From Bacilli bacterium (GTDB taxonomy: Bacteria > Bacillota_I > Bacilli_A > ML615J-28 > CAG-698): a stretch of DNA of 64,000 nucleotides. The notes beneath the pieces are model-generated. The model saw only the letters and a program-made list of their open reading frames with translations. It did not search any database and had not been told where the DNA came from. The stretch lies in NCBI GenBank assembly GCA_028691515.1, contig JAQUZE010000002.1:22743-86742 (forward strand). Reading direction: 5' to 3'. The position numbers and the translations under genes were made by a program. Below are positions 12 to 17,374 of the stretch, piece by piece (within the stretch, counting starts at the first letter, position 1; the number at the start of each line of letters is the position of its first letter).

Positions 12-39
12 TTGACTTATGTTTAAAAGTGTTTATAAT
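12..39 (+). promoter_or_regulatory. sigma70-type promoter for the riboswitch/antiporter transcript
   Basis: TTGACT (12-17), 16-nt spacer, TATAAT (34-39). Confidence 0.75.
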
Positions 40-43
40 AGCT

Positions 44-101
44 GTAGGGAATGATGTCTCCCCTAGTATTACTAAAATTGCTATTAGCTAATGACTTCTA
101 C
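44..101 (+). promoter_or_regulatory. Fluoride riboswitch (crcB motif)-like aptamer
   Basis: GTAGGGAATGATGTCTCCC ... GCTAATGACTTCTAC resembles the crcB-motif core (GGnGATGnnnTCnCC ... GCTAATGACTnCTAC). GTAG (44-47) can pair with CTAC (98-101); GGGA (47-50) can pair with TCCC (59-62). Confidence 0.8.
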
Positions 102-126
102 AACTTTTTTGTTGTGGATTTTTTAT
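98..126 (+). terminator. Intrinsic terminator overlapping the 3' strand of the aptamer
   Basis: CTACAAC-TTTTTT-GTTGTGG followed by ATTTTTTATTT; shares CTAC with the aptamer closing helix. Confidence 0.75.
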
Positions 127-2528: not shown

Positions 2529-4226
2529 ATGAAAAAAATTAAATTTTCAACAATATTAATGTTTTTCATAGTTATGTTTTTGTTTGGCTTTATTTCTAAT
2601 GTTAATGCATTAACAGAAGCTGAAATAATAAGTGAACTTTCAACTGCTGAATATAGTGAAAAAATTGAAAGAATATATATTAATGGAAAGGGAGCTACTA
2701 CTTTTTATTATGACAATGATATAAGTTTAAATTCTTATGGGGAATATTTATATAATCAATTTTATGCTTTTATAAAGGATAACCATTATGAAGCGCATTT
2801 TGTAATAAAGGAAGGTCCTTTGAATGAATATCTTGATCAAATTGGCATCGCATATCAAGCATTTGTGAGAGATCATTTAGAGTTTTTTTGGTTAACTGAG
2901 GGATACACAACAAGTTATAAGTATAATGAAAATCTCTTAGGTGAAAAAACAATTACAGAATTAACTTTAATACCAACCATTTCTGAAACATATATTGGAG
3001 ATGAAGATTTATTAACTGACGATATTGATAAATATATAATACAAGTAGAAATGCTTGTGGAAGAATCAAAAGATTACCTTTATAATTATGAGAAAGTTAA
3101 GTTTTTTCATGATTGGTTAGTTTTAAATAATGATTATTCTGAAGAATCTGAAGATTTAGCTCATTCTTCTATTGGTGCCTTACTTAACAAGTATTCTCCA
3201 GTTTGTGAAGGATACGCTAAAGCTTTTATGATATTGTGTAATTATATAAATATAGGTAATATTGTTGCAACTGGAGAAGCTGGAGAAAAACACGCCTGGA
3301 ATTATGTTGAAATTTTTGGTGAATGGTATTTTACTGATGTTACTTGGGATGATCCAATCACTAATCCTAATGATCCATCTAATATAGAATACACTTATTT
3401 TCTATCTGTTATTGATGATGAACATATTTTAGACGAAGAACAAATTTTGCCAATACCGCTTGCTACAAAAAGATTCGATAAGGATAGTATTGGTAATTAT
3501 TATATTGTTAATTTTTATGATGGTAATGATAAAATTTATTTTACTAATGAAGTTAAAGAAGGGGAGAAATCTTTAGAGCCTTTTGTTCTTCCTGTAAAAG
3601 ATGGCTACAAATATATTGAATGGGATCAAGAATATGATAATGTCTTAGAAAATCTTGATATTAAACCTATTTTTGATAAGGCAAATATTATAGTTAAAGA
3701 TGCTGAAGGAGCAAATATTGTAATTGATTATGAATCAATTGAAGATATCCTTTCAATAGATTTAAATATAGATGATAATTTGTTGTTTATTGGATGGAGT
3801 GATGGTAATAAGTATTATTCTTCTACAAGTATTATCACTGAGGATGTTGTTATTGTTCCTGTTGTAAAAGAAGTTGTTTTTACGATTAAAGGAATGAAAA
3901 AAATTGACGACTCACATTTTACAATTCCTCTTTTTAATATTGAAAATTTAGAAATCGATGTTGAAGAAGGAGTAATTGTTAAAACTATTGAAAAACCAGA
4001 AATTAATGTTTTTACAGACGAATATGAAATAGAAATTACTTTTGGAAGTAATTTTTCAAATTCAACTATTACAAAAAAAATTACTATTACAGCAACAGGA
4101 ATGAAAATTATAAATGATGTAATTAATTGGATTAAAATTAATTACATATATCTTTTAGTTGGTGTTGGTGGAATAATTGTAATAGGTATAGTTAAGAATT
4201 CTATTAAGAAAAGAAAAAGGAAATAG
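2529..4226 (+). CDS. Secreted/membrane-anchored transglutaminase-like protein
   Basis: Signal peptide; TGase-like triad context CEGYAKAF...HAWNYVEI...WYFTDVTWDDP; C-terminal TM helix followed by KKRKRK. Confidence 0.75.
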   Translation: MKKIKFSTILMFFIVMFLFGFISNVNALTEAEIISELSTAEYSEKIERIYINGKGATTFYYDNDISLNSYGEYLYNQFYAFIKDNHYEAHFVIKEGPLNEYLDQIGIAYQAFVRDHLEFFWLTEGYTTSYKYNENLLGEKTITELTLIPTISETYIGDEDLLTDDIDKYIIQVEMLVEESKDYLYNYEKVKFFHDWLVLNNDYSEESEDLAHSSIGALLNKYSPVCEGYAKAFMILCNYINIGNIVATGEAGEKHAWNYVEIFGEWYFTDVTWDDPITNPNDPSNIEYTYFLSVIDDEHILDEEQILPIPLATKRFDKDSIGNYYIVNFYDGNDKIYFTNEVKEGEKSLEPFVLPVKDGYKYIEWDQEYDNVLENLDIKPIFDKANIIVKDAEGANIVIDYESIEDILSIDLNIDDNLLFIGWSDGNKYYSSTSIITEDVVIVPVVKEVVFTIKGMKKIDDSHFTIPLFNIENLEIDVEEGVIVKTIEKPEINVFTDEYEIEITFGSNFSNSTITKKITITATGMKIINDVINWIKINYIYLLVGVGGIIVIGIVKNSIKKRKRK

Positions 4227-4534: not shown

Positions 4535-4978
4535 ATGCGAAGAATTGGTTTTGAAGTAAGATATTTAGCGAATTTAATTAAAAAGACTTTAGATAATACT
4601 CCAACTTTTCAAAAAAATAAAAGTATTACAGGGATGCAATATTTTATTATTTGTTTTATTTATAAGAATAGTGATCGGGATGTTTTACAAAAAGATATTG
4701 AAAAGAGGTTTCATATGCAAAAATCTACTACATCTCAAATTATATATACTATGGAAAAAAATGGTTTAATAATAAGGGAAAAAGTAGATTATGATAAAAG
4801 AACTAAGAAGATTGTTTTGACCAATTTAGCATTGATGATTAAAGATGAAGCAAAAAAAGAAATAAATCAATTAGAGCAAAATATTGTACAAGGATTAACA
4901 GAAGAAGAAATAGAGCAATTTTATTATGTTGTTGATAAAATTAAAAAAAATATTCAAGATAAGGAACAAAATTTATGA
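4535..4978 (+). CDS. MarR family transcriptional regulator
   Basis: wHTH MarR-type sequence (QKDIEKRFHMQKSTTSQIIYTMEKNGLIIREKVDYDKRTKKIVLT); 4-nt overlap with the next ORF. Confidence 0.9.
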   Translation: MRRIGFEVRYLANLIKKTLDNTPTFQKNKSITGMQYFIICFIYKNSDRDVLQKDIEKRFHMQKSTTSQIIYTMEKNGLIIREKVDYDKRTKKIVLTNLALMIKDEAKKEINQLEQNIVQGLTEEEIEQFYYVVDKIKKNIQDKEQNL

Positions 4979-11838: not shown

Positions 11839-12405
11839 ATGGAATGGTTGATTGATTTTTTTACAGCAACACCTTGGTGGGAATTGGTAATTATCTTTGG
11901 ATGTAAAATGTTAGAAGTTGCAATTATGACTGTAAGAATTATTATTGTTAATAGAGGGTATAAATTGATTGGTTCAATTTTAGCTTTTATTGAAGTTATT
12001 TTGTGGATATTTATTGCTTCTCGTGTTATTGTAAATATAGCTGCAGAACCATTTAAAGGAATTATTTATTCTTTGGCTTTTGCTGTAGGAATTTATGTAG
12101 GATCAATTATTGAAAAGAAACTTGCTTTTGGTAAAATTATGATTCAAGTGATTTTACCAAGTGAATTGTCTGAAGGAATAGTTTCTGATATTAGAAAGAA
12201 AAAAATTGGTGTTACAACCATTGCAGCAAAAGGAGTTTCTGGTAATAAAACTATTGCTATGATTTATGTGAGTAGAAAAAGAGCTGAAAGTTTAAAAAAC
12301 GAAATACTTCATCAAGCTCCATCTGCTTTAATTGCCGAAAATGATATTGTTGATATATCTGGAGGTACAATGTCATCAAACATGAGAAGGAGAATAATTA
12401 AATAA
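11839..12405 (+). CDS. UPF0316-like membrane protein (DUF5698/DUF2179), paralog 1
   Basis: Three predicted TM helices plus DUF2179-like C-terminal domain; near-identical architecture to 12629-13192. Confidence 0.75.
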   Translation: MEWLIDFFTATPWWELVIIFGCKMLEVAIMTVRIIIVNRGYKLIGSILAFIEVILWIFIASRVIVNIAAEPFKGIIYSLAFAVGIYVGSIIEKKLAFGKIMIQVILPSELSEGIVSDIRKKKIGVTTIAAKGVSGNKTIAMIYVSRKRAESLKNEILHQAPSALIAENDIVDISGGTMSSNMRRRIIK

Positions 12406-12430
12406 ATGGTGGGTTAATTATCCCATCCAT

Positions 12431-12506
12431 GCATCCATAGCTCAATGGATAGAGTCTCACCCTCCTAAGGTGATTGTTGCAGGTTCGACTCCTGCTGGGT
12501 GCGCCA
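12431..12506 (+). tRNA. tRNA-Arg(CCT)
   Basis: Cloverleaf by eye: acceptor GCATCCA/TGGGTGC, anticodon arm TCACC-CTCCTAA-GGTGA, T arm GCAGG-TTCGACT-CCTGC, encoded CCA. Confidence 0.93.
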
Positions 12507-12518
12507 TTGATTTTTAAT

Positions 12519-12543
12519 ACCAGCTATTTTAGCTGGTTTTTAT
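12519..12543 (+). terminator. Intrinsic terminator after tRNA
   Basis: ACCAGCTA-TTT-TAGCTGGTTTTT. Confidence 0.85.
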
Positions 12544-12628
12544 TATATGTTTTGTAGAATTATTATTGTGTTTATATTGCATAATAATTTTGTTACTATA
12601 TAATATTATATATATGGAGAGTGAATAT

Positions 12629-13192
12629 ATGGAATGGTTTGTTGATTTTATGACTGCAACACCTTGGTGGGAGTTGTTAATTATTTTTATTTTTAAGGTG
12701 GTTGAAATTTCAATATCTACAGTTAGAATTATAATTGTAAATAGAGGATATAAAAAAGAAGGAGCAATATTATCTTTTATTGAAGTTTTAATTTGGGTAT
12801 TTGTTGCTTCTGTGGTAATTGCAAATATTAGTGAAGCTCCTTTAAAAGGAATAATATATGCTTTAGGATATTCGGTTGGAGTTTTTTTAGGTTCAATAAT
12901 TGAAAAACGTTTAGCGTTCGGACAAACAATGTTACAAATAATTGTTGATAATGATGTTGCTAAAGAGATTACTACATTAATTAGATCAAAGAAAGTTGGA
13001 GTGACAACAATAGATGCTCAAGGAGCTAGTGGAGTAAAAATGTTAATAATAATATATATCAACAGAAAAAATGTTGTTGAGATAAAACAACAGATTTTAG
13101 CAATAGAACCAGCAGCTTTAATTGCTGAAAATAATGTTGATAGTATTTCAGGTGGAACAATTTTAAAACAAAAAAGAGGAATTAGAAAATAA
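12629..13192 (+). CDS. UPF0316-like membrane protein (DUF5698/DUF2179), paralog 2
   Basis: Start refined to MEWFVDFMTATPWWELL, matching paralog 1 MEWLIDFFTATPWWELV. Confidence 0.75.
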   Translation: MEWFVDFMTATPWWELLIIFIFKVVEISISTVRIIIVNRGYKKEGAILSFIEVLIWVFVASVVIANISEAPLKGIIYALGYSVGVFLGSIIEKRLAFGQTMLQIIVDNDVAKEITTLIRSKKVGVTTIDAQGASGVKMLIIIYINRKNVVEIKQQILAIEPAALIAENNVDSISGGTILKQKRGIRK

Positions 13193-13232: not shown

Positions 13233-14270
13233 TTATTTGTCGATATCGGTTATGTAATTTTTTAAATAGGTTGCTATTTTATAAAATCCTAAATCAGTTA
13301 AATGCGTGCCATCAACAGATTCATCAAATGAGTATTCTTTTAATATATCTATTCCAGAAATAAAGTTGCAATTATATTTTTCACATATATCTTTTTGAAT
13401 TTTTCTTGTTTCATTACGAGTTTTTCTTGTGTTTTCATCGATTAATTCAAAAGCATCAGGAAAATGAGAAATAACAATAATGTTTAAGTTTCTTATTTTG
13501 TTTAGGAGTATTTCTAAAAACAATGGTAACCTTTCTTTAATTATTTTAGGGTCATTTATATTTGCTTCAGCTTCAATTATAAGATATTTTAAGTTTTTAA
13601 TTGTTGTAATTTGTTCAGCAATTTCTAAATTTAAATGACAATTACCAGAAAACCCTAAATTTATAATTTCATAATTAATTAGTCTTCCAAGAATTGAGGG
13701 ATAGCTCATTCCTGGACGAGTTGCACAACCGCCTTGAGTTATTGATGTGCCATAAGTAACTATTTTGTCTTTAATAATATTTGTATTAGATTGTATTGTG
13801 GAATTTTGGTCTATTCCTATTTCTAGTTCTTCTAATGTAATATATAAAGGCAAATATAATCTAAATGATCTTGTTTCAGGTAACAAATTTTTTATCAATG
13901 TTATTAAATATTCTTTTTGATCTATTTTAGTTGTAGCAATAAAGATATATTTATTATTTTGTTTATAATATAAATCAATTCCTATTTGACCTATAGCGGT
14001 CATATGAGCCATATATGAAGAACTAGATGTTTTAACATGTAGATTAATGGATGTAGAATTAGTAGTAAAGTCGATGTATAAACCAGATGAATGTTTTGCA
14101 AGATATTTAATTTCTTTTGTAGTTTTAATTTTATCTGGTAATCTTGAGTACAGCAAAGAAGAGGCCATTTTTCCGTTGACTTGAAAATTTGATTTGGTAT
14201 TATACCAAGTAATATTTTCACAAGAAAATTTTGTAATGTTCATGTTCTTATCAATTTTTATAGTGTTCAT
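13233..14270 (-). CDS. SGNH/GDSL-type hydrolase with N-terminal beta domain
   Basis: YGTSITQGG block, GFSGNCHL, C-terminal DGTHLTDLGF (catalytic Asp/His context). Confidence 0.8.
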   Translation of the reverse strand: MNTIKIDKNMNITKFSCENITWYNTKSNFQVNGKMASSLLYSRLPDKIKTTKEIKYLAKHSSGLYIDFTTNSTSINLHVKTSSSSYMAHMTAIGQIGIDLYYKQNNKYIFIATTKIDQKEYLITLIKNLLPETRSFRLYLPLYITLEELEIGIDQNSTIQSNTNIIKDKIVTYGTSITQGGCATRPGMSYPSILGRLINYEIINLGFSGNCHLNLEIAEQITTIKNLKYLIIEAEANINDPKIIKERLPLFLEILLNKIRNLNIIVISHFPDAFELIDENTRKTRNETRKIQKDICEKYNCNFISGIDILKEYSFDESVDGTHLTDLGFYKIATYLKNYITDIDK

Positions 14271-14335
14271 GATTAACCTCCATATTATAATTATACACTT
14301 TAAAAATTAGAACTCAAAGAAAAAATGCACAAGTG

Positions 14336-14364
14336 TTGACAATTATCTGTAATTAAGGTATTAT
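14336..14364 (+). promoter_or_regulatory. Promoter of sRNA candidate
   Basis: TTGACA (14336-14341), 17-nt spacer, TATTAT (14359-14364). Confidence 0.75.
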
Positions 14365-14370
14365 TTATAA

Positions 14371-14463
14371 GCAACTTAGGTTGTACTTATCCCTCTGCGT
14401 TGAATAAATTCAACGCACCCCCCCTTCAAAAGCCGAGTTTTATTTTTAAAACTCGGCTTTTCC
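14371..14463 (+). ncRNA. Candidate small non-coding RNA (C-rich linker, intrinsic terminator)
   Basis: Starts ~7 nt after the -10; no ORF; hairpin TGCGTTGAA-taaa-TTCAACGCA (approx. 14396-14417), C7 (14418-14424), terminator hairpin (14428-14461). Confidence 0.65.
14428..14463 (+). terminator. 14-bp perfect intrinsic terminator hairpin
   Basis: AAAAGCCGAGTTTT-ATTTTT-AAAACTCGGCTTTT. Confidence 0.9.
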
Positions 14464-14500
14464 TTTTGTGTTTTATTTGTATTATGTTATAATACTTTAG

Positions 14501-17374
14501 GTGATTAAAATGAAAAAAATAACTATTATTATGTTTAGTATGTTTCTATTTATTCTTTGGGGATGTACTCCTTCAAAAATAGAAGAAGGAGCTTTAAAAG
14601 ACTTTATACTTCCAGAGTTTATTTATGATGATGTCAGTTTTCCAACTCAGTTTGTTGATAATGATAACAATACTCATCAACTTAATTATTCTTCTAGTGA
14701 CTCAAACATTTTGACTATTACTGGGAAAATAGGAAAAATAGACAAAGATGAAGAAGTTACTATTTCTGTAACTATGGAATTTGATAAAAAAACTTATCAA
14801 AGAGATTATATGATTTTGGTATTAAAAGGACCTTTTGAAGAGGGTGTTTTAAGCGATTTGTCTATACCGGAAATTATATATGAAGATTATACTTTTTTAT
14901 ATACTATGAATGATAATTTAGATCAAAAATATAATTTGACTTATTATTCAAGTAATGAAGATGTTTTAGATAATAAGGGTCAAGTAACTAGAAGTGATAA
15001 AGATGAAAATATTGTGATTAAGGTTGTTGCTGATAGAGAAAAACATGTTTATATAAAAGAATATAATGTTTTAGTGCCTAGTTCTAAAACAGAAATGTCA
15101 GAAGATATAATTGCAGCGTTAGAAGCAAAAGATTCTTTTGATTTAGGAATTGAAACAATAGAAAGTAATATTAATTTGCCTATTAGTTATTCGGGATTTG
15201 ATTTAACTTGGGTTTCGTCTAATAAAGAAGTTATAGATGATAAAGGTAATTACTATCCTATTGATCAAGATGAGAATATTACTTTGACAGTAAAGTTTGA
15301 AAAGAATGATAAAGTTTTAGCTTCTAAGGATTTTGCTGTTTTAGTTAAAAAAACAAGTCCAGAAGATAGATTGGTCTTTGTTCATTCCTCTATAGTTATT
15401 CCCTCAATAATAGCAGAAGATGATGTGATTCAATTGGATAGTTCTTTCTCTTATGGTGTTCAAGGTTCCTGGGAAAGTAGTGAACCAGATGCATTAAGTA
15501 ATGATGGGAAAGTAGTTTTTAAAACTTATGAACAGTCGGTTGTTTTAACATTAACCTTATCATATCTTGATGAAGTAAAGCAGTTTGATTATATTATAAC
15601 AATAAGTGCTATAGAAAATTCATTTGAGTTTTTAGAGGCTGTTTCAAGCATAAATATTCCGTTGGAAACAAAAAATAATATATATCTTCCTTCAACAGTA
15701 AATATAAACAATGAAGATATAATCTTAGAATATAATATTTCAAAGCCTGATATTATAAGTTATGATGGAATTATTAATAGAGATAATAACGATGAAGAAG
15801 TATTAATTGTTATAAAAAGAATATTAGAAAATCGCATTGAAATGATTGAAAAAAATATAGTTGTTTTGGGTTATGATGTGGAAGAAGTAGCTGAATTATT
15901 TGATTTAGGTATTGAGGAAACATATGTGGATATAGAATTGCCAAGTAGTTTTATGGGATATGAAATTCTTTGGTTATCATATAATGAAGATGTTATAAGT
16001 AGTTCAGGTAAATATAGCTTTGTTTCTGTTGATACTGAAGTAACTCTTTCTGCATTATTTGCTGCTGGCAGCTATCCGGAAAAAGAAATAAAGGTTATTG
16101 CAAAACCTATTCCTGATTCTGTTAGGTTAAATATGATTATTAATACTATCGAAATACCGGAAGTTGTAGGAACAAACTTAAATTTGGAAACTGTTTATGA
16201 TTATAGTGTGACTGGCGAGTGGACAAGTAGTGATGAGGGTGTTATTACAACTGATGGAATAGTGTATTTAACTAGTATTGAAAAAAATGTAACATTATCT
16301 TTAACTCTATATTCTGGAGAAGAAACACTAACAAAATTATTTATAGTTAAAACAATTGCAATAGAAGGGAAACAGGTTATGGGTCATAATTATCAAGATT
16401 ACGCTAAAGATTATAATTTAATGAGTATGGTAGATGTACACTTAGAAGATGAAAGATTAGTTTTAGATGAAGGAAAAACGACTGGTACATATGTATCAAG
16501 TGAATTTAATACAATAGGATTTGAGAGGCTGGTAGCGTCTTGGGCAGCAATTAGTTCAATGAAAGGCACTGTTGAAATTGAAATCAAAGTAAAAGTTGAT
16601 GGTATATGGAGTAAATATTTCTCTTATCAAAAATGGGGATTAGGTTTGCAAAATAAATCTATTGATTCTTCTGATTCAATTGCTAAATTATCAACTGATG
16701 AAGTTGTAATTTTAAATTCAAAAACGGCAGTTGCATATCAATATAAAGTAACTTTGAGAAGGAATGCATCTCTAGATGAATCTCCTAAATTATTACTAGT
16801 TGCGGTTGCTTTAACTATTCCTAATTATACATATCCGGTTGATACAACAGGATTTCCTGATTTTGTTGATTATGATGTTCCGCTGTTGAATCAAAATGAA
16901 GTTCCGGTAATAGGAAACTCTATATGTAGCATTACTTCTTCAACAATGTTGTTAAAATATAAGGGGCATAATTTTGAAGAATATGATTCAGAATATGAGC
17001 ATCGATATATTGCTGGATTATTTAAAGATTATGGTGCCAATATTTATGGTAATTGGGTTTATAATACTGTGGGTATGAGTGCTTATGGAGAAGAGACTTT
17101 TGTTAATAAAATGTATTCTTTTGCAGAATTACAAAAACATTTATTAGAAGTTGGACCTATTTCAGCATCGGTAAAAGGCAATATGGGGTTATATACAACT
17201 GCAGGTCATTTAATTGTTGTTCGAGGTTATAGAATTACTAACGGACAAACTTATGTTATTACTAATGATCCAAACATAAATAGTAGATTTGGAAATGATT
17301 TGTTTGTTTATTATGAATATCCATTGGCAACATTTATGAATGTTTGGCGTGGAGTTAATTATATAATTAAATAA
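14501..17374 (+). CDS. Lipoprotein with tandem Ig-like (atrophied bacterial Ig) repeats and C-terminal C39-like papain-fold peptidase domain
   Basis: Lipobox LFILWGC; repeats with W.SS...... pattern; C-terminal YDVPLLNQNEVPVIGNSICSITSSTMLLKYKG...TTAGHLIVVRGY...VITNDPN. Confidence 0.75.
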   Translation: MIKMKKITIIMFSMFLFILWGCTPSKIEEGALKDFILPEFIYDDVSFPTQFVDNDNNTHQLNYSSSDSNILTITGKIGKIDKDEEVTISVTMEFDKKTYQRDYMILVLKGPFEEGVLSDLSIPEIIYEDYTFLYTMNDNLDQKYNLTYYSSNEDVLDNKGQVTRSDKDENIVIKVVADREKHVYIKEYNVLVPSSKTEMSEDIIAALEAKDSFDLGIETIESNINLPISYSGFDLTWVSSNKEVIDDKGNYYPIDQDENITLTVKFEKNDKVLASKDFAVLVKKTSPEDRLVFVHSSIVIPSIIAEDDVIQLDSSFSYGVQGSWESSEPDALSNDGKVVFKTYEQSVVLTLTLSYLDEVKQFDYIITISAIENSFEFLEAVSSINIPLETKNNIYLPSTVNINNEDIILEYNISKPDIISYDGIINRDNNDEEVLIVIKRILENRIEMIEKNIVVLGYDVEEVAELFDLGIEETYVDIELPSSFMGYEILWLSYNEDVISSSGKYSFVSVDTEVTLSALFAAGSYPEKEIKVIAKPIPDSVRLNMIINTIEIPEVVGTNLNLETVYDYSVTGEWTSSDEGVITTDGIVYLTSIEKNVTLSLTLYSGEETLTKLFIVKTIAIEGKQVMGHNYQDYAKDYNLMSMVDVHLEDERLVLDEGKTTGTYVSSEFNTIGFERLVASWAAISSMKGTVEIEIKVKVDGIWSKYFSYQKWGLGLQNKSIDSSDSIAKLSTDEVVILNSKTAVAYQYKVTLRRNASLDESPKLLLVAVALTIPNYTYPVDTTGFPDFVDYDVPLLNQNEVPVIGNSICSITSSTMLLKYKGHNFEEYDSEYEHRYIAGLFKDYGANIYGNWVYNTVGMSAYGEETFVNKMYSFAELQKHLLEVGPISASVKGNMGLYTTAGHLIVVRGYRITNGQTYVITNDPNINSRFGNDLFVYYEYPLATFMNVWRGVNYIIK

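Follow-up and report, generated by a model that had tools for sequence, protein, structure and literature searches.

RsaE/RoxS (RF01820), described as the only trans-acting small RNA (sRNA) besides 6S common to Staphylococcus and Bacillus, pairs through CRR3 with G-rich Shine-Dalgarno sequences (PMC4409812). The UCCC motifs of LhrC (RF00616) of Listeria pair likewise with Shine-Dalgarno sequences, without Hfq (PMC4132741), and the C-rich Firmicutes sRNAs FsrA and CsfG are likewise C-rich in predicted single-stranded stretches (PMC4409812). Here we analysed a window, that is, the full 64-kb stretch of DNA, in which an earlier note made from the sequence alone had proposed an orphan sRNA gene of this functional kind. 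The element studied occupies 14336–14465 (+) and is composed of the following features; the models R1 and R3 are described below.

14336..14364, +, promoter TTGACA-N17-TATTAT; 51 of 58 family loci have a promoter in the corresponding position
14370..14465, +, sRNA of about 95 nt; R3 match at 14367–14465 (34.2 bits, E 3.9e-5) and R1 match (48.7 bits)
14372..14383, +, 5' hairpin CAAC-TTAG-GTTG; seen in sequence and fold, helix 1 covaries
14384..14395, +, C-rich motif 1, linker UACUUAUCCCUC; its core CUUAUCCC(C/U) is near-invariant among relatives
14396..14417, +, second hairpin of 9 bp; seen in the fold, 5 of 8 pairs changed on both sides compared with L003/L004
14418..14427, +, C-rich motif 2, CCCCCCCUUC (family consensus AUCCCCUU); unpaired family-wide, mean probability 0.97
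14428..14465, +, intrinsic terminator; stem at 14428–14461, 14–15 bp here and in the g6 relatives

The promoter consists of a −35 box TTGACA (14336–14341) and a −10 box TATTAT (14359–14364) with a 17-nt spacer. It matches 11 of 12 consensus positions and is the top promoter match within 3 kb, in line with its description in the earlier note as near-consensus. The sRNA probably starts at about 14370–14371, 6–7 nt downstream of the −10 box. The 5' hairpin, the linker (read as TACTTATCCCTC at 14384–14395), the 9-bp hairpin, and the C7 tract (14418–14424) were all found where they had been reported. The terminator hairpin was also present, with 15 pairs counted instead of the 14 bp reported, and its tail is CCTTTT, with no clean T run. 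The predicted fold of 14370–14463 has an energy of −36.1 kcal/mol, compared with −10.9 ± 2.7 kcal/mol in shuffles (z = −9.5), and leaves the linker and C7 unpaired. Compared with the family motifs, the window copy has CCCUC in place of CCCCU, and its motif 2 is C7UUC; this deviation tells against the pairing mechanism favoured below.

On the upstream side lies a gene encoding a GDSL/SGNH hydrolase (13233–14270), on the minus strand and thus divergent, as had been noted. The product of the downstream gene is a lipoprotein that combines aBig_2 domains with a C39-like peptidase domain. The claim that this gene has a promoter of its own was borne out by an extended −10 element (TGTTATAAT, 14485–14493, with TATAAT at 14488–14493), and its start is likely ATG 14510 rather than GTG 14501. 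The window genome (1.23 Mb in 24 contigs) has a single copy of the sRNA. Elsewhere in the window, a fluoride riboswitch was found at 38–107 (+) (36.9 bits against a cut-off of 34), and two adjoining paralogous DUF5698/DUF2179 genes at 11839–13192 (+) have a tRNA gene (12431–12503) between them.

A plain DNA similarity search found two relatives only, both in genomes of genus g6, which belongs to the GTDB family of the window. Their architecture is the same, their hairpin sequences differ, and their fold z-scores are −8.1 and −8.7. Since MAFFT misaligned hairpin 2 in the three sequences, the window was aligned using model R1, which was trained on the two relatives. In the resulting three-sequence alignment, all 32 pairs hold in every cell (100%) and 10 of the 32 have changed on both sides; none of 500 shuffles was as good. 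A three-sequence model run over 395 genomes of the class yielded three further clear copies, and the core common to the early copies, TATCCCCTA-N-CCCC, revealed the family when searched class-wide: it was found in most non-phytoplasma genomes of f10 and in more genomes of f1, f2, and f15. Core matches lacking a hairpin between the C tracts were regarded as chance. Many weak matches of R1 and R2 in the order and class searches were coding sequence or lone terminators and were discarded by eye. A locus search with the lipoprotein gene of the window as the query gave no related loci.

The covariance model R3 was trained on 21 sequences, of which 20 were regarded as Acholeplasmataceae and the remaining one came from an f15 genome; its training set contains no sequence of the window's order. 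In its structure, 14 of 22 pairs have changed on both sides, 97% of the cells are paired, and 0 of 500 shuffles were as good; sliding the pairing partners by 1–3 columns lowers the pairing to 31–54%. When R3 was run with filters off on the 64-kb window, the element was the top match, and the next match scored 18.4 bits. Under strict filters, R3 misses the window copy, which was then not among the candidates scored. R3 also recovers the g6 copies and other members from f1 and f2, one of them (G037) weakly with an E of 0.9. This held-out test provides the strongest support for regarding the window element as a genuine, diverged member of the family. Matches of R3 in G024 (coding), G031 (repeat array), G352, and G214 were rejected, as were L220, L224, and L381 as family members. 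A borderline locus on a phage-like contig from IMG/VR (L377) has motif 1 and motif 2, with a hairpin region that is long and different.

According to order and class searches with R3, in which matches were judged by eye and by neighbourhood, about 50 genomes of seven GTDB families (f1, f2, f10, f13, f15, f21, and f22) carry the sRNA, so that the term 'orphan' in the earlier note was wrong. Sampling 392 genomes across the phylum gave no match beyond the class at E ≤ 0.01. A survey of named genomes identified f10 as Acholeplasmataceae, and the carriers include Acholeplasma oculi (G305), A. granularum (G341), A. equifetale (G223), Haploplasma modicum (G217), and a strain of A. laidlawii (G123). 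Three further genomes (G129, G200, and G188) are presumably A. laidlawii PG-8A, A. palmae, and A. brassicae, respectively. Ten small genomes of genus g134 (f10), probably phytoplasmas, were sampled, and none gave a match. The family of the window includes the metagenome-assembled genomes Tenericutes bacterium ADurb.BinA124 (G026), Bacillales bacterium UBA3935 (G027), and Acholeplasmatales bacterium DTU067 (G005). In G027, two copies of the sRNA lie about 500 bases apart (L175; C60, positions 51852 and 52370), with a run of N after one of them; elsewhere, a single copy per genome is the rule.

In f2, f10, f13, and f15, the gene order topA–sRNA–(tpx)–ftsY–ylxM–ffh is shared, and the sRNA is located 50–160 nt behind topA on the same strand (70–150 nt in Acholeplasma). 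For G158, the identities of topA, a redoxin gene, ftsY, ylxM, and ffh were verified with Pfam. The recurrence of this position across families points to an ancestral gene. In g1, g6, g9, and one g14 genome, the sRNA lies just upstream of an aBig_2/C39-peptidase lipoprotein gene, on the same strand, and the hydrolase gene is usually on its other side. In the window's family, the sRNA has moved from the topA site to the C39 lipoprotein gene.

We surveyed the anatomy of 58 loci, a few of which are second records of one copy. A promoter with at least 9 of 12 consensus positions at the right distance was present in 51 of the 58, nearly always with a spacer of 17 nt, compared with 20% of shuffled controls. 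The hairpins vary in sequence and length and their loop lengths change freely, yet all three covary, while CUUAUCCC(C/U) and AUCCCCUU are nearly unchanged across the family. The mean unpaired probability over the 58 loci was 0.82 for motif 1 and 0.97 for the C tract before the terminator, which agrees with the earlier reading of the C-rich patches as single-stranded. The promoter and the covarying hairpins likewise support independent transcription, and the conservation and covariation check that had been suggested found both the linker core and the pre-terminator C tract kept in relatives. The gene, its promoter, structure, conservation, and exposed motifs, and its ancestral position behind topA, are results of the computation.

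No family in Rfam 15 reached its threshold for the window element or for 20 loci with diverse members, consistent with the earlier statement that no known family was recognised, and a search of the window element at E ≤ 10 gave no meaningful match on the plus strand. RF01820 had no match at its gathering threshold in the window or in the loci of the 20 relatives and was not listed for the window. Against the copy of A. laidlawii, it scored 18.6 bits (cut-off, 79). RF00616 scored 28.7 bits (E 0.01; cut-off, 110) against the same copy and was also not listed for the window. With scores this far below the cut-offs, the element belongs to neither family, although it probably works in a similar way. 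FsrA and CsfG share with it C-rich regions in predicted single-stranded stretches, and no Rfam family reached its cut-off on any member tested.

Like RsaE/RoxS, the new family consists of sRNAs of about 100 nt in low-GC Gram-positive relatives, with several C-rich single-stranded stretches, one of them directly before the terminator (CCCCUUUGUU in RoxS and AUCCCCUU here), a duplicated motif, and Shine-Dalgarno pairing as the likely mode. The analogy to RsaE/RoxS drawn in the earlier note therefore holds for function, whereas family membership fails on the model score. The core CCCCUUUGUU of RoxS contrasts with CUUAUCCCC(U/A) of the new family, in which a linker carrying motif 1 joins two conserved hairpins and which occupies a different genomic position. 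The expression of RsaE/RoxS is under ResD/SrrA control. LhrC, of about 111 nt, resembles the new family in its repeated UCCC motifs and in Hfq-independent pairing with target mRNAs, the latter being what we propose here. In LhrC, however, UCCC is found in two loops (loop A and the terminator loop) and a linker, and the gene is multicopy, whereas the new family has its motifs in two single-stranded stretches and is mostly single-copy. The 10-nt duplication CCCCUUUGUU that characterizes RsaE/RoxS (PMC4409812) is absent, the motifs of the new family being (A)CUUAUCCCCUA and AUCCCCUU. Features general to C-rich anti-Shine-Dalgarno sRNAs, namely repeated C-rich motifs kept single-stranded and a gene with its own promoter and intrinsic terminator, are present. 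In the open PMC literature, no description of the family was found; a structured-RNA survey naming Acholeplasma concerns a different motif, upstream of aroF. With no Rfam 15 match, no published description there, and scores below the RsaE/RoxS and LhrC cut-offs, this is a new sRNA family of a known functional kind.

We favour, at a probability of roughly two in three, the reading that the element is a trans-acting, promoter-driven sRNA gene of about 95 nt whose exposed C-rich stretches pair with the Shine-Dalgarno regions of mRNAs. The two hairpins and the terminator would hold UUAUCCCCUA and AUCCCCUU single-stranded (UUAUCCCUC and C7UUC in the window), and UAUCCCCU and AUCCCCUU would then pair antisense with the G-rich Shine-Dalgarno regions of several mRNAs. 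Such pairing would lower translation initiation and subsequently mRNA stability, presumably without Hfq, judging from what is generally known of Mollicutes and from the precedent of LhrC. Expression of the gene, its pairing with ribosome-binding sites, and the identity of the controlled mRNAs are what we infer from these features.

In 10 Acholeplasmataceae genomes, the complement of motif 1 followed by a start codon (AGGGGATA-N2-12-ATG) occurs 131 times, compared with 38 times for the reversed pattern. Since AGGGG itself resembles a Shine-Dalgarno sequence, however, this enrichment upstream of ATG cannot be ascribed specifically to the sRNA. Among 87 inspected AGGGGATA sites, 65 begin an open reading frame of at least 50 amino acids. 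A search for conserved targets found almost no orthologues sharing a site across species; the shared sites were one ABC-transporter-like cluster in three species and one pair in two species. The mRNA of the lipoprotein gene directly downstream of the sRNA in A. laidlawii has a ribosome-binding site (AAAAGGGATAAGTTATG) predicted to form 9–10 bp with ACUUAUCCC (duplex energy, −14.6 kcal/mol), which makes this mRNA a lead, not a result. At locus L183 (about 4640–4655), the ribosome-binding site AAAAGGGATAAGTTATG is complementary to motif 1, and the lipoprotein gene is missing here in strain QMP. The R3 match of this locus spans 352,877–352,979 of a 1,496,992-bp contig, and its −10 box is TATAAT.

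The main rival to mRNA pairing is that the sRNA acts chiefly by binding a protein, as a decoy or sponge with repeated UAUCCCCU/AUCCCCUU. The near-invariance of CUUAUCCC across families exceeds what loose pairing with diverse Shine-Dalgarno sequences needs, and two near-invariant C-rich copies displayed between rigid hairpins would also suit a protein-binding site. Nevertheless, there is no candidate protein, and the Firmicutes relatives in design (RoxS and LhrC) pair with mRNA, so that we regard this reading as unlikely. More improbable still is a cis-acting element, which would be either a leader or an attenuator belonging to the lipoprotein gene that follows, or else the processed 3' untranslated region of the gene that precedes it. 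It would fit the position upstream of the C39 lipoprotein gene in g1, g6, g9, and one g14 genome and the short distance behind topA in Acholeplasma. However, the neighbouring genes change between lineages (lipoprotein, topA/tpx/ftsY, tgt/ftsW, or recombinase), the sRNA has its own promoter and terminator while the next gene in the window has its own extended −10 element, and in G026, G027, and G005–G007 the sRNA is not the leader of that lipoprotein gene. That the element is the 5' untranslated region of the gene at 14501, which the earlier note had named as a refuting outcome, is contradicted by the differing neighbours in most relatives.

We rejected a peptide-coding function, to which we give very little weight: a frame of 12–14 codons spans motif 1 in A. 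laidlawii, but frames and starts vary among the 52 members surveyed, none is conserved, and 16 of the 52 have no ATG frame at all, while loop lengths vary freely and the hairpins covary. Chance hairpins and a terminator in a non-functional intergenic region are hardly credible. Promoter-like matches as a class are indeed not more frequent in this AT-rich stretch than in shuffles, but covariation, the held-out model match, and the conserved position refute this reading.

A near-identical variant, GTCGCAACTTATCCCTTACATAGCATG, lies on mobile elements. It was found in f13 and f22 genomes (L296 and L307), in four viral-type contigs (L376, L378, L379, and L380), and in plasmid CP017949.1 of Tenericutes bacterium MO-XQ (L382), whose chromosome also has an ordinary copy (L207). 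The mobile copies follow a large serine recombinase gene at a distance of about 30–60 nt, and this gene is in most cases the second one in a tandem pair. Several are located a few hundred bases before tRNA-Leu, tRNA-Cys, or tmRNA genes; in L307, L376, L379, and L382, the gene that soon follows is for tRNA-Leu or tRNA-Cys. tRNA and tmRNA genes are usual integration sites. From their position behind serine recombinases, and in several cases near tRNA or tmRNA genes, we conclude that the sRNA is cargo borne by integrative elements at their end. A mobile-type copy in G149 (L308; 3086–3184 vs 3493–3838) adjoins smpB and the tmRNA gene, and no recombinase lies within 3 kb of it; it may be left over from an element at this tmRNA. 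Separately, three tandem AAACTCCCTTGAAAAAGTGTAACTTTTTACAC units, each a hairpin with CUCCC, lie behind a serine recombinase gene (L241; G031:C25:6037–6138). These units score 26 bits with R3 and are not a clear member; they may represent an array of attachment sites or an RNA with multiple motifs.

sRNAs so broadly conserved are rare in low-GC bacteria, and our literature search found no described trans-acting sRNA of Mollicutes of comparable depth. Tentatively, and with somewhat less than even confidence, we suggest that these loci form one very old trans-acting sRNA family, on that side of the Mollicutes to which Acholeplasma belongs, whose place behind topA was fixed in an ancestor common to several families and which serves as a broad, Hfq-free translational regulator. 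tRNA-integrating elements with tandem serine recombinases would carry copies of it, perhaps to enter or control the sRNA network of the host. The mobile copies raise the question of why integrative elements keep a host-type sRNA beside their recombinases. In this family, the Mollicutes have an sRNA whose locus is fixed, whose structure covaries, and whose seed is obvious, and since it is present in cultivable species such as A. laidlawii, its expression and targets can be tested at once.
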